Notes under the pieces: model-generated
Told to the model about the DNA's origin: nothing
The model's database searches: none
The model's input: the letters and a program-made list of their open reading frames with translations, nothing else
Shown: one piece after another, positions 26,410 through 35,684 of the stretch
Position numbering within the stretch: position 1 is the stretch's first letter
Layout of the letters: each line of letters opens with the position of its first letter
NCBI GenBank assembly: GCA_903953935.1
Contig: CAJBLF010000016.1
Span: 1-35,684 of the forward strand
Origin: an uncultured bacterium
GTDB lineage: Bacteria; Patescibacteriota; Gracilibacteria; Absconditabacterales; Absconditicoccaceae
Length of the DNA: 35,684 nt
Direction of reading: 5' to 3'
Position numbers and translations under genes: made by a program

Positions 26410-29400
26410 ATGGCCATTATAGGGAATAGTAACGTCGAATATAAAAAAGACGAAAAAACTAGGTATCATGAAGCCGAAAACATTAAGGACATTACACAAA
26501 CAGACTTAAAAAAATTGAAAACAGAGTTGAAACCTGAGACAGAAACAGACCTAGATTCAAAACTTACAAAAATCAACGAGCATGTTGAAACATATTTCGA
26601 TTGATTTCTTTCTAGAGATCGAGAAAAATCTATTACCCTGGATGTAAACTGAGTTCAGATTACCGATATAGTAAAAAATATTGTCGCTTCTTGAGATAAA
26701 ACTAAACTTGATGCACTAGCTAATCATGTAATCAATCAAGTGTGATATGAGAAGGATATATTAGAAATAAAGGATATTGAAATACAAAATGTTCTTAAGG
26801 GATATAAATTTGAACTCATCGATATATGGAATCAAGTCAAAGAATCCTCTACTGGACAACCCGATCAGCCATTTAATAAAGATTTAGATAATGGAAAAAA
26901 TGATTCTGATCATCCATTTAATAAAGATTCGAATGATGGTAAAACAGACAACTATCAAAAACAGGATGACTATATCGATCCCTATAAACAGACGGGATAT
27001 ACTGATGTAAATAAAGATAGACAAATAGAAAATATTTACAGAGACAACAAGGTTTCCAAAGTACTAGAAAGGATTTTTGATAACGAACAATGAGGAGAAG
27101 AAATTCGTAGAGGAATGTTTAACATAAATCTAGATAAAGAAGATGGTCTTGCTGGTATCATCATCGCTATCCGTGAGGCAATAGTAAACAAAGATAATAA
27201 TGACTCAAATAATGTCCATAAAAAGTTATATAATAAACTTATCGAGCAAGGGATATTGCGTATTTCTGGAAACACCATTGATCTTGAATTTTCTAGAAAA
27301 AATTTAGTTGAGCTTCTTGATTCCAATGATCTTGTATATACAAGAAAATGATGACTTGATGATGAAAAAGCAAAAATTGCTAAACTATTGAGTAGAGCAC
27401 AACGAGCTGATCTTGATACGTTTGCATCACTTCTTCAATCTAAGGACGATGTAGTTATGGCAGTCAAAGAATGGAACAACACACTAGAAATGACCTGACA
27501 AAATAGAGAAAAATCAGAAAGAAGAGAAACACAGACCTCACTCATTACTGATACTAATGTCTTGGAGTTTTTATGTGACTTCAATAGTGACTGAGAAATA
27601 TCCGCAGAATATAAAAGAAAAAACAATAAAGAACAAAGAAATCAATGAGATGTTTGAGTCCTCTTTTGACAACAAGTTCTGTTTACTGTTGACCAAGCAA
27701 TTGCAGTTAAAGAGGTCGAACTCGGTACACCACAATGAGAACAAGTGGTTATCTCCAGCATCATCAAGAACATGAACATAGCAGATAGTAGAAACCTAGA
27801 AACTACACATCTCATAACTATGCAGAAAGATCCAACAAAATGCACCAAAGCAAATCTCACAAAACTCATCAATGGTGATGTTACTCAAGGCATCTATCCT
27901 ATGCCTGAGATGAAGATTTTCTTTCTCGATGCTATCAAAAAAATAAATGGCTGAAACCAAGAAGTCCAACCAGATTTGTATGATACCCTCGTAGGCAAAG
28001 AAGCTGAATCATTTCTTTCTGAAAGAACAGAATTGCTTTCTCTCTATGAAACAGAAATTGCACTCAAAAATAAACTTGATGAGATACTTGCTGCTTCCCA
28101 AGAACCAACAACAAAAGAAATGATTAGAAAAAATGGACTTGTACGCGTCAGAGAAACTGTATTTACTCAAATCATGACTGTTATCGATCATGTAGAAATA
28201 ACCACAAATGATGGTGCGAAAACTCAACTCCAAGCAGCAGGCGTAGATAAATGACGAGAGACTCGCACACTCAAAAAAGAACTTCTAGAAAGCACAATCA
28301 ATAGCCTCATACAAACATGAATCCATTATAGCGAGACATGATGATGGAGATTTATGCTAGGATATGGTAAAGAAGGAACAAGTAAATCTGGTAGGACTAA
28401 GCGAGCACGAGGTGCTGGTGGATGACTTATCATCTCATGAAGCAATATCGAACTTGCTATCAATCTTACGTGAGAAGTCGCTGAACAATATAATTATCAA
28501 AGAGTTATCAATGCCAATCTTTCAAAGGTAAAAAGCGCTAAATATGTCGGTATTGAATGATGAGTACTCGCTGGTATCGGAACGCAAGATCGATGAGTAG
28601 ATGTAGAATGATATGCGGGCATAAATTGGCAGCAAGATCCTGTGGCTGGTATCAACCAAATTAACAAACAATATGAATCAGTATCACAAGAAATTTTTGA
28701 TATCAGAGAAGCGTCTCCTGATATTCTTTCTGATAAAGTATGATTCACAAATTATATGCTTGGAAGAATTACAGGAAAAAAAACTGATAAGGTATATGGA
28801 AAATTTATTGCAAATAATGAACAACACCTCATCGACAATCTTGCTTTCATAGTAAGATATATGGATGCCAACAATTTCTTTTGAGACAATAGCATACTCA
28901 AAAAATATCCACAAATAAATACTCCAAATGCAATCAACACATTACTCGACATCATCCAATCAGGAAATATCGAATCACGAAGATCAGATATTATTGCATG
29001 ACTTCACGGTAAAGTGGCACTCACCAAATTATCTTTTGGCGTGACAACAAATGCACTGACTTTGAAATCATGATCAGGAGTATGATCTCCAAATGCCCCA
29101 ACACCAGGATCAACTTCTGGAGAAACTACAGGACAATGAAATACAACCACAGGAAATGGAGGCAATGAATCTTGAGGAAATGAGTCATGAGGAAATCTTG
29201 GTGAAAGTAGATTTGGCGTCGCTGGTGTATATATAGGACTCAGAATCTCAACATGGAAAAATATTTATGTCCCAAATGAAGCACAATATCTCTTCACACA
29301 ATACGAAACATGACAAGGTATCTGAACCGAATACATCACCAATCCTCTCAAAGACCTCAATAAATATGGAGAATATTTAATTGCACTTTACAACGATCCA

Positions 29401-31266
29401 CAAAAAAGATTATGATATAGTATACATGGAAAAACATTGGTGATTACCTTTGACTCAAAATGATCCGATCTTACCCTTGCAAAATTTCTCAATATTCATG
29501 CAACCACAGATGCTCAACCATGATTCTCACTTAAAGGCAATGTTCTAACCATAGGAAATGTCGGGGAGATGGGTGCATATACTATTACCGAAGCTAAGGG
29601 TGTCCGTAGAATACTCTGTCTATGAAGCAAAAAACTTGATGATGCAGAACGCCTTACTTGAGATAATGCGACTATTGATGTAGATCCTATGAAACCACAA
29701 GAAACTGGCAACAATCTTCCATGGACACAGACAAGAATACAAACCGAGATTATCGACAAGATGACAGGTACCTGAGCATGACTCGATATTGCAAAAACAG
29801 AAACAGCAGCATTTATCAGTTCAGAAGCAAAGCTTCAAAAACCTACAGGCAAAGAACGAGCAACAACAACGATCACCTTTGAACCCACAACTATAGAAGG
29901 ATCACTTCTCACACAATGAGCATTGACCATTACCAAAAACGCTGACGATAGCTATACTGTTGCGCTTGATGATACAAATCCTACCGACAAGCTTATCATC
30001 AATTATATCGATCAAAAAGCCTATCAAGAAGCAAAAAATAAAGCAATACACAACAAAGAAAGTCGGAGTGTTACCACAACTTTTGATGAAGAAGGTATAA
30101 AAAAAGAATTTGCACTACCAACAAACATCAGCACGGTATTTGCCCAAGATACTGAAGAAGCACTCTCTGTATTTGACAATTACAATAAGACACTCTATAG
30201 AGAGTTTATGGAAAGTATAGTCGATAAAAACATTGATTCTTTCATCAATGCCACTGATTATGGGAATGCATTTGAAGCACTCAAAAAAATACTAACAACT
30301 AACAAGAAATATAATGAATTACCCGATCTCAAAGCACTCATAGAAAGAACTGATTTAACGCCCAATGAGAAAATGCTCATCGTGGATAAATTCAAAACAA
30401 TTTTTTCCTATGTTATCGAACTTACTGATGGAAAAAATGACGGAAAAAAATTAAGCTCACTCATATCCGTAAGAAAACTTACCTATACCACCATGAAGTG
30501 ACCTAATGGAGAAAAATTTCCTACTATGGATGATTATAGGACAACTATTGTAAATAATCTCAAGAATGAAAATACATTGGAACGTACATCTGTACCTAAT
30601 CTTATAGGATTCACTGCATTTTATAGATTAAAAGATGACAAAGGAAGAAAATATGCCATGACTCCTGTGGGATGAACTAATGTACTCTCATCATGAGATC
30701 TCGAAACAGCTATGCTTCCACTCAATAACTGAGATATCCCAAAAGCAAAAGATTGGTTTATCAAAAATCTTAACGTTAATAAAGACAACAAAAAAATGAT
30801 ACTCGAGAAAATCGTCAACCTTCTTAATAAAAATGGTATTAATATACCTATAGATAGCCTTGAACCAAAACTTGAAAAACTTCTTAAAACTAACGAACTC
30901 ATTCTTCAAGATTTAACACTTGACTCTTTTAAGAAAATAAGTATAGATATTAATCGAGTATTTTACCTTTTGGGTGAATGCGGAAATGAATCCCTCGGAA
31001 TGAATATTAAGGGAATCAAAATACATGACGTCAATGTTCCTGAAGCAAACTTTACAGGAAGTGGAATCCCTGAAAAAGAATTGGAAGGCGGTATGGATCT
31101 AAATATCAAGAGCCATTCTATCGCTAGTAAAGTACTGACACAAGAAAAGAGGGTCGGCATAAAACACCACCAATCAAATATGCCTATAAAACCTAAGGGC
31201 AGTAGTACTGCAGGAGAAACAACAGACCCATGAGAAATAACTACATGAGAAGGTGGTAACGAATAA
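26410..31266 (+). CDS. Giant protein of unknown function, 1618 residues
   Basis: One open frame of 1618 codons once UGA is read as glycine; the standard code breaks it dozens of times. No family recognised, and no signal peptide or clear membrane segment. The first 250 residues are polar, Asp/Asn/Lys-rich and repeat a PFNKD-type unit (QPFNKDLDN, HPFNKDSND). At residue 390 DFNSDGEISAE resembles an EF-hand-type calcium loop, though the last acidic ligand is one position early. Residues 640-700 are Gly-rich and strand-like (RGAGGGLIISGSNIELAINL). A Gly/Asn/Ser/Thr linker lies near 898-935. The C-terminal half is helical and acidic, ending in a Thr/Gly/Glu-rich tail. It leads an apparent operon with two exported DUF11 proteins 45 and 51 bases apart, suggesting a surface or contact function. 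How it would leave the cell is unclear. Confidence 0.8.
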
Positions 31267-31311
31267 GCAATCTCTACCCTATAATACTTTTAATCTCTTT
31301 AGACCAATATC

Positions 31312-34290
31312 ATGACAACAAGAACACATCTTGTAGCAATCATCGCAATCATAGCCGCTGCTACGCTCGGTACTTTTTGATATGCTGATCGAATAGATAA
31401 TATCCTTCCGATAGAAAGTATGTCGAATGTTAATTCTTGTTCTAGTATTGGAAAAATGTACCTCAATCAAGATAATGATGCTGATGGTAAATCAGATTAT
31501 TTTCTCTATCTTAATAGTAATTTCATCCTAAGCTGAACGACAAATGATTATACCGCTGGACAGATTCTTATGACAGATGCATGAGTCACCTATAGTAAAG
31601 TGAGATATTACAAACCACTAACAGACATGCTCTACAAAGTAGATGTAAACAATACTCCTGCAGCACTTGATAATAGTACCTTTTATAGAGCAAGTCGAGT
31701 TTTTCCTTACAATACTCCACTCAGAGGTATTGCAACCACACCAAACAAAGTAGTTTTCGAAAGACCTACAGATAATGATCCCACAAAAAACATTATCAGT
31801 ATCATCTATGATTATAGATATAAATATGCAGTAGGATTTAATGGCACAAGCACTTCATCTTACTGGTACAACCAAATTCCTGATATGGGATATATGGGAA
31901 ACAGTCCAACGTATATGACTACACTTCCTTGAACATATGGAAATAGAAAAAGAAGCCGATCAACAGATATACCTACCAGCTCTAGTTGTAGAAACTATGA
32001 ACTTCATCGATGTGGAAATGGGATAGTAGAGACCTCCAATTCTTCATATCTCAACACATTCACTTCAGAACAATGTGATGGTACTGCATGAGTGCCTTCT
32101 GGATATACTTGTACCAACACATGTACACTTCAAGCGGTTGTTGTGAAACCTACATGTACACTTTCCGTCTCTTCGTGATCTTTTGCTTTATGAACTTCCA
32201 TACAAAATTCATGGACCATTAGCGGTACCTATACTAATAGTCCACAAATAACGTATACGCCTACTACACGACCTATCACCTGACTTCCCTATACGGTAAC
32301 TACCGCTAACGGACAACATACTATCACTCCGACACATACAGGAAATTATGCTTTGAGCATGACTGTAAGTAATAGTGCATGATCATCAGTTTGTACTTCA
32401 GCGATTGCAGTAATTCCTGTAGTACCGCCACAAAACCTCAGCTGTACATTGACTTTGAGTCCCAATCCTAGCTCTCCAAACCAAGCAGTAAACGTTGCAT
32501 GGAATGTGACTGGTGGTACTTTTTACGGAACCTATATTTTTGTCACTCCTTCGCTTACATGAGCATGGCCACATGCTATAAATGCCAATCAATATAGTTG
32601 ATCTACGTCTGCACTACCAACACAAGCAGGAACATATACCTTTAGTATGATTGTAAACAACAATCAATCAACTGCTGCGTGTACATGAGTACTCACGGTT
32701 GCAGCAAACCCTCCTCCGACATGTTCGTTAACAACTATTACTCCGACTATATATTCTTGACAATCAGCGATCCTCAGCGGATCATATACGAATGCAACCT
32801 CAGCAACTATGACACCTAGTATTGCTGGATTAAATTTTATCTATCCAACACGAAATAATAACAATATATCTGTACATCCAACAACAACTACTACTTATAT
32901 ACTAACCGTCAATGGTCTTTCGGGAACAACTCCTGCAATCTGTCAAAAAACCATTACGGTAACTACTGTTCCTACACCGACTTGTTCATTGACAACAACA
33001 ACTCCTACTATCAGTTCTGGACAAACAGCAATACTTAACTGATCGTATACCAATGCAAGTTTAGCAACTATAACACCTAACATTATTTGACTTAACTTCA
33101 TCTATCCAAATCGAAGCAACAGCAACATATCTGTACAACCTACAGCTACCACAACATATACACTCACTACGTTATGATTATGATGAAGTTCTTGAGTAAG
33201 TTGTACCACTACGGTAAATGTAACAAATGTTGGACTTACGCTCAACAAAACACTAATCAACAATATCCTCTATCATTCTGGTGATCTCGTAGGTTTTAGA
33301 ATAGACTTTGCCAACAACTGAACAACCATTGCAAACAATGTCGTCCTTTCTGATTATCTTCCCGTATCACTTGAATATGTAAGCAATCAACTCTTCGGTG
33401 TATCTCCCTATACGTTTGGAACATGAATGCAATGACCAAATCAGTTCATTGAATATTCATGATTTAGCCTAACTCCTGGACAACAATGATATATGATACT
33501 TACCTGAAGATTTAAATGATATCAGTACGCAGCACAAAGACTCAATAATTCATTTATTCAAGCGACCAATGTTCCTACTATCAACTCTTCAGCGTTATTT
33601 TATGTGTATACACCTTCAGCAAACGCAACCATCACCAAAACCGCAGATAAGAGTTCTTATTATCTTGGTGAAAATGCAAGATATACGATAGCAGTGACCA
33701 ACAACGGCCCTGATACTATAGATAATGTACAAATTATAGATACTCGACCAAACCCATCTTGTATCACTATAGATCCACTTCGAACATCAAGTTTACCTAT
33801 GACAATGACCACTGCCAATAATCCTTATACTCGAAATTTAAATAGCTCCTTGTCTGTCGGACAGACAGTAAACCTATATCTCACCTGACATATTAGCAAT
33901 GCTTCAAATTGTGTAGGTACCTATATCAACAATGCTGATCTTAGATATATGGTCAATGGCCTTCTCAAAACAGGACATTCAGATGTCACTATCAATGTCT
34001 CTACCGTACCTACTGCCTCTATGAGCATAGATAAATATATCATAACCTATGGAAATACTCAATGATCCAAAGTAACATTTGGTATCACCTACCAGAACAA
34101 TTGAAATTCACCGCTCTCCAATTATGAAATTGTGGATTACTGGCCAGGCACATTAACATTTAATTCTGCTAATCCAACGCCTACTACCCAAACACCCACC
34201 TCATGATGACTCCTCTTGCGCTGGATATTTCCTGGTACTATTGCACCTAATGGTTCAGGAACAATCATTCTTACAGGAACAATTAACTAA
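31312..34290 (+). CDS. Exported repetitive surface protein with DUF11 repeats
   Basis: A 992-residue exported protein. A signal peptide (MTTRTHLVAIIAIIAAATLG, to about residue 24) is followed by a calcium-loop-like DNDADGKSD (54-62) as in thrombospondin type 3 repeats. A Cys-rich module (from C234, RCGNGIVE..EQCDG..CTNTC) resembles DUF4215. Four Ig/PKD-like modules of about 87 residues span 279-640; the last two are near-duplicates. Three DUF11-type modules span 641-992 (LNKTLINNILYHSGDLVGF, ITKTADKSSYYLGENARYT, SIDKYIITYGNTQGSKVTF). Such domains build stalks and adhesins on bacterial surfaces. No LPXTG or other C-terminal anchor is visible. It is Thr/Ser/Asn-rich and uses UGA heavily. Second gene of the operon. 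Confidence 0.85.
32713..33234 (+). repeat. Tandem duplication of one Ig-like module
   Basis: Two in-frame units of 261 bases (32713-32973 and 32974-33234) encode 87-residue modules sharing C-S-L-T-T, TPTI.SGQ, GSYTNA, GLNFIYP.R and T.TTTY.LT. The Cys positions are residues 471 and 558. The neighbouring modules are more divergent, so this pair is a younger duplication or has been homogenised. Confidence 0.8.
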
Positions 34291-34341
34291 CATTATTATA
34301 ATCAAGTATCTCATCATCTTTACATTATTATGGTTACGGAA

Positions 34342-35684
34342 ATGAAAAAAACATTTTATATCATCGCCCTCGGACTCTTATGATTCTTGTGAATCACATT
34401 TGCCGATGTAAATAGCCTGAATATTGCACCTACAACGCAATCAGCTATTTCTGGTTCGTTGGTAACATTCACGGTTACATGAACCAATACCACAGGTGAT
34501 GTATATCTCAAATATATTTTGCCAAACACGGCAAACTATTCTGTCATGTATCAAAACGCAACCATGACACCACTGAATGTTGCGCTTTTGACGCTCGGTA
34601 TCGAACATGATCCATTGTTTTTGATTCCTGCAAACAGTAATTTTTCCGTAACAGTTACTGGCAAGATGATAACTACCACACGAGCGTTTCCTCTACTATA
34701 TACTACATGACTTTTTGCTACTGATATGCAGATGACTTCTGTATTTACGTCAGCAATTGCTCAGATACTACCTGTTTCTGATCTCCTTATAAGTAATATT
34801 TTGACGTGATTTAATCCTATTTCTTCCGGAGATATCGTATCCTATTATATAGTACTACAAAATATCTGATCTGATATAGCGACCGGCATTACTTTCATCA
34901 GTACCTTCCCTATTCCTACCTTAGGCACTCCGATTGCGACATTCAATAATGTTCCGTACACATATACCTATATCAATTATCCACAGGATTTTGTATGGAC
35001 ATGATTAAATAATTTGAATCCATGAACAAGCACAATAATTACCTTATCAGCTCCACTGACACAAAATTTTCCTGTAGGTACTCCCTTTAGCCAGATTGCA
35101 AAAACCACTACTATCGCTCCTGAATATACAACGGGCAATAATTTTGCTACAGCAACAGGAAGTGTAACATGACGTCCTGATCTTCGAGTAACAAAAACAT
35201 TTCTCCAACCATGGCCATCATTTTCTTGAGATAAAGCAATCTTTGTCATCACGTATGGAAATAGTTGATATACTATAGCAAATGGAGTAATGCTTCATGA
35301 TACCGTTTCACCTCAAATTTCTCGATCATCATTTGGTTCATTATGATCTGGACAAGGAAGTGCATCTCTATCTTTATGAAATATACCAGCAGGTAGTGGA
35401 GGTACTATCATCATGACTGGATATCTTAATGGCACTTATCCAAGCCCCGGAACAACAATTACCAATACGGTAAGTATTGATATGACGGGCCAGGAAATAA
35501 CTACTTGAAACAATTATAGCACCGTAAGCTGATGGGTCATAAGCAAACCTCGAATAGCAATAGATATCCTAGCTAACAATCTTTCAAAACCACAGATGGA
35601 TACTCCTCCATACTGATCATGATCACAAATTATGATTCAAGCAGTTTCTGGTGATATCGTAAAATTGACGATGAATTATATTAA
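34342..35684 (+). CDS. Exported DUF11-type surface protein, 3' end beyond window
   Basis: The first 447 codons of a protein that continues past the window. From ATG 34342 it has a signal peptide (MKKTFYIIALGLLGFLGITFA, where two G are UGA), then a strand-rich, Thr/Ser/Asn-rich exported part. Segments such as SNILTGFNPISSGDIVSYY and LRVTKTFLQPWPSFSGDKA followed by FVITYGNSGYTIANGVML are DUF11-type repeats like those of the preceding protein. An in-frame ATG at 34330 would add four residues; I prefer 34342 because MKK is a normal signal peptide start. It lies 51 bases after the preceding gene in the same operon. Function is probably structural or adhesive at the cell surface. Confidence 0.82.

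Follow-up and report, generated by a model that had tools for sequence, protein, structure and literature searches.

The window analysed here, 35,684 nucleotides long, is a complete contig from a draft genome of 1.30 Mb in which TGA is read as Gly (translation table 25); long frames appear only with this code and are shattered with table 11. A preliminary description had proposed three adjacent genes at one end of the window, a giant gene followed by two others, and all three frames are indeed open under table 25 (Table 1). The giant gene is separated from the second by 45 nt, while the second gap is either 39 or 51 nt according to the choice of ATG: the third frame is open from 34330 or 34342 to the contig end, with the first 447-451 residues present, and homologues, which begin MKKTFYII..., favour the start at 34342 and hence the gap of 51 nt. 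In several close relatives the 992-residue partner exists as two separate genes (about 345 and 890 residues). Upstream of the giant, some 330 bases and a tRNA-Thr encoded on the opposite strand intervene before the next gene, so that the operon would start with the giant itself. A promoter and terminator scan of the locus produced counts at chance level and no strong signal; spacing and synteny suggest a single transcription unit.

Table 1. Features of the three-gene locus (positions are those of the window).
Feature	Position	Strand	Remarks
Giant protein, 1618 aa, new family	26410..31266	+	no signal peptide or TM helix; 49 in-frame TGA
Calcium-loop-like DFNSDGEISAEY (DFNSDGEISAE, residue 390) in giant	27577..27612	+	
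Gly-rich region, long beta strands predicted, residues 640-1090	28327..29679	+	homologous to same region in families f14/f22
Low-complexity GSTSGETTGQGN... linker within strand region, residues about 885-932	29062..29205	+	variable among close relatives
Conserved C-terminal domain of giant (FTAFYR, FYLLGECGNES motifs)	30127..31089	+	
Disordered Ser/Thr/Gly/Pro tail of giant	31162..31263	+	similar low-complexity tail in most homologues
First exported partner, 992 aa	31312..34290	+	Sec signal, Cys domain, PKD-like repeats, three DUF11 copies; 31 in-frame TGA
Partner signature CRNYELHRCGNG in first partner	31987..32022	+	pattern C-x2-[YFLIV]-x-[IVLFA]-...CG[DN]G
Three DUF11 copies of first partner	33238-33525, 33631-33942, 34054-34308	+	last match overruns stop codon
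Second exported DUF11 partner, cut by contig end	34342..35684	+	orthologues 1167-1279 aa, ending in LPPGAxEF domain

Sequence and profile searches with the giant against Pfam, NCBIfam, PDB, PHROGs and PADLOC gave chance matches only and no phage record was matched, in line with its initial reading as a protein of no recognisable family. Neither DUF11 (PF01345) nor any toxin family was matched, no RTX nonapeptide-repeat family occurs among the Pfam matches, and neither an SLH domain nor a Por_Secre_tail (the C-terminal domain of type IX secretion, T9SS) was matched in the giant or in its two partners. The giant has neither a signal peptide nor a TM helix. That a signal peptide had been missed through a wrong start codon was considered and ruled out, since the stop-to-stop frame extends the gene by no more than 9 codons, and the earlier statement that none is visible thus holds. 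The PFNKD repeats (two copies, at residues 154 and 169), DFNSDGEISAE loop, Gly-rich strand region (most clearly described by residues of about 640-970) and low-complexity linkers (one within that region, one at the C-terminus) that had been picked out from the sequence could all be located. A D-x-[ND]-x-[ND]-G loop is present in 27 of 44 giants and many homologues carry the canonical 12-residue form ending in D, as in the pattern D-x-N-x-D-G-x-[IV]-x3-D that is typical of dockerin-type calcium loops; unlike a dockerin, the giant has a single loop, no Pfam dockerin match and no cohesin. AlphaFold models computed with six sequences reached a pLDDT of 44.9 for residues 1-640 and 39.7 for residues 420-1618, too poor for fold assignment, and a Foldseek search with the latter model returned nothing at E<=0.001. 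The strand pattern of the Gly-rich region, which derives from this model of pLDDT 40, is correspondingly tentative.

The two downstream genes had been described as exported DUF11 proteins, and both have Sec-type N-termini and score 71.5 and 48.7 bits for PF01345, beyond the Pfam cut-off of 24.6; in the genome of the window DUF11 is found only in these two genes. The Cys-rich N-terminal domain of the partner ends in C-x2-[YFL]-x-[IVL]-..-CG[DN]G..E.CD. At the other extreme the last partner of each locus terminates in a domain of about 275 residues, finishing ...RR..I.NGASVLIEYSP.L...LPPGA.EF..., whose mean identity of 39% is far above that of the rest and which is neither in Pfam nor in the PDB. 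The window itself lacks this domain because the contig stops within the second partner. Most genomes of the window's family (SR1, f1 in what follows) that have any copy have one, and the partners of two further families of the class, f14 and f22, end in a related version (97.3%). Weaker relatives end large exported proteins in other families of the class, with a giant-like gene upstream in L182 and L183 and none upstream in L172, L173 and L177. Since the domain sometimes stands without a giant-like neighbour, the stalk domain appears to be older or wider in distribution than the giant. Two additional observations concern this domain. Genome G173 has extra LPPGAxEF copies away from its giant (L187:9472-18813, minus strand, and L188:1-10284) that end proteins of 3113 and at least 3427 residues. 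In families that use the standard code, exported proteins bearing a related C-terminal domain have as their next downstream neighbour a conserved protein, related to L118_02, of about 935-1011 residues (L172:10590-13397, L173:5105-7990, L177:6213-9041 and L182:10398-13433).

A first scan of the genome contigs with the single giant protein gave no match, and a single-sequence search recovered homologues in 16 of the 192 genomes of the class, all within f1. With profiles built from two regions of the giant, homologues appeared in the majority of the 49 f1 genomes and also in families f14 and f22. When the f1 giants were compared with those of f14/f22 by hhalign, probabilities of 99.2% for the C-terminal domain and 98.9% for the strand region were obtained and, given profile-profile homology in more than one region, we regard all of these giants as one family. 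Its members, some of them from genomes recorded as candidate division SR1 or Gracilibacteria, including Lac Pavin MAGs, range from about 500 to 2350 residues (some are cut by contig ends) with a mean identity of 18%, and alignments A1 and A3 of the homologues proved too divergent for peptide patterns. The giant is therefore specific to a lineage, as had been suggested, namely the SR1 family of the window plus two further families of the class. By the crude hydrophobicity rule used for judging signal peptides (a few partners were accepted by eye), a Sec signal is present in 1 of 49 giants, the other 48 having no recognisable export signal or TM segment. The signal-bearing homologue is L154_05 (L154:9479-12286, minus strand) of genome G145 in family f22, with the clear signal MKNSHGSSLSKVAITTGSLLVALSGNAGA-EEG, which may reflect a change of location in that lineage. 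Behind L154_05 lies another exported protein, with Ig-like domains.

In order to establish whether giant and partners are linked, we considered the neighbourhoods of the 49 giants, 46 of which include downstream sequence. In 45 of these 46 the gene at position +1 or +2 lies on the giant's strand and encodes a large exported protein; in the sole exception, L159, the contig ends after one gene. The partner-signature pattern, run over the 471 ORFs of the first 46 neighbourhoods, was found in 36, of which 35 are directly behind a giant and the 36th is at the start of a contig that holds a giant's end. When a profile of the partner N-terminal domain was run over whole genomes, the strong matches either adjoined giants or fell in six genomes that both giant profiles had missed, and in 6/6 of these a signal-less giant (1399-2009 residues, the shortest cut by a contig end) was located directly upstream of the partner. 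This blind search is, in our view, the strongest evidence that the giant-partner pair is real, and it indicates that a giant's absence in searches is often a loss of detectability. Distances among giants and among partners also correlate (Mantel r 0.62, 0/2000 permutations), which is what co-inheritance predicts. Giants unlinked to DUF11-type genes, which would have spoken against the proposed grouping, were thus looked for without success, and the linkage is conserved across f1 and beyond. The proposal that DUF11 proteins are the companions of the giant stands in part: the exported neighbour is constant and DUF11 is its usual stalk, but DUF11 itself is not constant. Judged from these comparisons, what remains constant in the partner is its export, together with the Cys-rich N-terminal CG[DN]G domain and the conserved C-terminal domain.

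It could be argued that the genes are mere neighbours, with unrelated functions, kept together by vertical inheritance. In many f1 genomes the locus does occupy a conserved place, beside a conserved gene of 400 residues, so that shared ancestry explains part of the synteny. The surroundings differ among f1, f14 and f22, yet the pair persists, and where an f1 genome has no giant, the partner domains are mostly absent too. We consider simple neighbourhood to be improbable, and the conservation of the locus supports the view that the three genes belong together.

A picture that would accommodate these observations is one in which the operon encodes two obligatory halves of a single lineage-specific cell-surface assembly. 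The partners would exit via Sec and form repeat-built stalks, with a Cys domain, Ig/PKD/DUF11 repeats and, on the last of them, the conserved C-terminal domain. The signal-less giant, a Cys-poor, multidomain protein with a calcium loop, would be their companion, most likely exported independently of Sec, and would sit with the stalks in an outer layer through which other cells are contacted. We assign a probability of roughly 45% to a surface assembly in which the giant leaves the cell by a Sec-independent route. Within it, binding between giant and stalks, a position of the giant outside the cell and a role of the outer layer in host contact would each follow by inference. A location outside is favoured by the low Cys content, the dockerin-like loop, the disordered Gly/Ser/Thr/Pro tails and the one homologue with a Sec signal. 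Cys accounts for 0.23% of residues in the giants vs 0.99% in other signal-less ORFs, although the homologues are not independent samples and large proteins of a disordered or structural type are often poor in Cys as well.

A location inside is favoured by the lack of a signal in 48/49 homologues and by a charge that resembles that of cytosolic proteins (27% DEKR in the giant of the window, 8% in the partners). The giant could then stay in the cell as an assembly factor or scaffold for the stalks, acting as a chaperone or, on the inner side of the membrane, as a platform for their sizing or docking, a role that would also fit its place always upstream of a putative client with short gaps. The same low Cys, calcium loop, disordered tails and Sec-signal homologue of G145 argue against such a cytosolic factor, as does the much faster evolution of the giant (18% identity) relative to the C-terminal domain of the partner (39%), which would be unusual for a chaperone; we hold this to be an unlikely, if serious, alternative.

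A barrel of the outer membrane and type IX secretion were also considered. Omp85/BamA was matched in 0 of the 49 f1 genomes vs 7 of 14 control genomes. An outer-membrane beta barrel of the cell's own is thus unlikely, and we reject it. A T9SS of the cell's own was rejected as well, none of the three window proteins or of the partners scanned having a T9SS tail; in the corresponding search for SprA no control genome was matched. Por_Secre_tail (PF18962) was found beyond the Pfam cut-off elsewhere in 30 of the 49 f1 genomes (for example at G000:C32:19463-19672, G000:C13:917-1114 and L026:7420-9504) despite the absence of Omp85 from all 49, so that sorting tails typical of outer-membrane Bacteroidota occur here in bacteria without barrel machinery.

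The long strands predicted for the Gly-rich region, together with the improbability of an own barrel in genomes that lack Omp85, raise the question of whether the giant is targeted to the host, entering its cell or settling on it as an effector or as a pore-former with amphipathic strands, with the stalks keeping the host in place. Relatives are described as consuming the cytoplasm of their hosts (PMC8080830). The strand prediction comes from a model of pLDDT 40, alternating hydrophobic windows are in weak excess in the giant (z 0.9 and 2.7) and no toxin family was matched; we regard a host-directed giant as quite improbable.

How does a surface assembly with a Sec-independent giant compare with known systems? 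S-layer proteins of the Caulobacter RsaA type, which leave the cell by type 1 secretion, resemble the giant in being large, signal-less and low in Cys, with a calcium-binding motif; in contrast to them the giant matches no RTX repeat family. DUF11/B_ant_repeat surface proteins (PF01345, TIGR01451) resemble both downstream partners, which carry DUF11, but the giant has none, and the partners have two domains in addition, the Cys-rich one at the N-terminus and one at the C-terminus that Pfam lacks. Closer in lineage is Vampirococcus lugosii, for which giant membrane proteins with DUF11 and a proposed role in host contact are described (PMC8080830). The likeness lies in the common lineage, the very long proteins and the presence of DUF11 among the lineage's large proteins; the V. 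lugosii giants are described as localised to the membrane, and the parts of that account used here describe no obligatory gene pair. The signal or TM segment that defines the giant membrane adhesins of Absconditabacteria is absent from the giant of the window, and 1/49 homologues has a signal. Two MAGs of the Absconditicoccaceae epibiont Strigamonas methylophilicida encode 31 proteins of >1500 residues, 16 with and 15 without a signal or TM segment (PMC13059738), and members of the giant's family may be among the latter, which the portion of that report consulted neither treats as a family nor links to neighbours. Large extracellular proteins and S-layer domains have been described for a Gracilibacterium (PMC6851277).

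The locus would thus belong to a known kind, the lineage-specific surface systems of these epibionts; the portions of the literature on them considered here do not describe exported stalks with a signal-less giant as their obligatory partner. If true, the principle by which a signal-less giant is exported or assembled would be categorically new. The lineage comprises very small bacteria whose presumed way of life is attachment to other bacteria, and attention to how Absconditabacteria/Gracilibacteria grip and drain them has so far been on type IV pili and on giants with membrane signals. What the present locus offers is a defined, testable pair, carried as a single locus by most family members, one half of which, the giant, would pass through automatic annotation as a hypothetical protein of the cytosol. 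Where the fast-evolving giant escapes sequence search, the conserved domains of its partner can lead to it. A class-wide two-part system, in which Sec-exported stalks and a giant that leaves by some Sec-independent route make up a layer that holds the host, is a more doubtful extension.

Finally, some features of the surroundings recur. In family f14 (L115:5929-8270, L117, L155, L156 and L159-L161) the genes ahead of the giant are rnpA-like and YidC-like, together with one for a conserved exported protein that has a Cys-rich N-terminus and a length of about 240 residues. In a number of close relatives (L026:2152-4395 and also L029, L030, L106 and L107) the cluster is adjoined by an exported right-handed beta-helix (NosD-like) protein.
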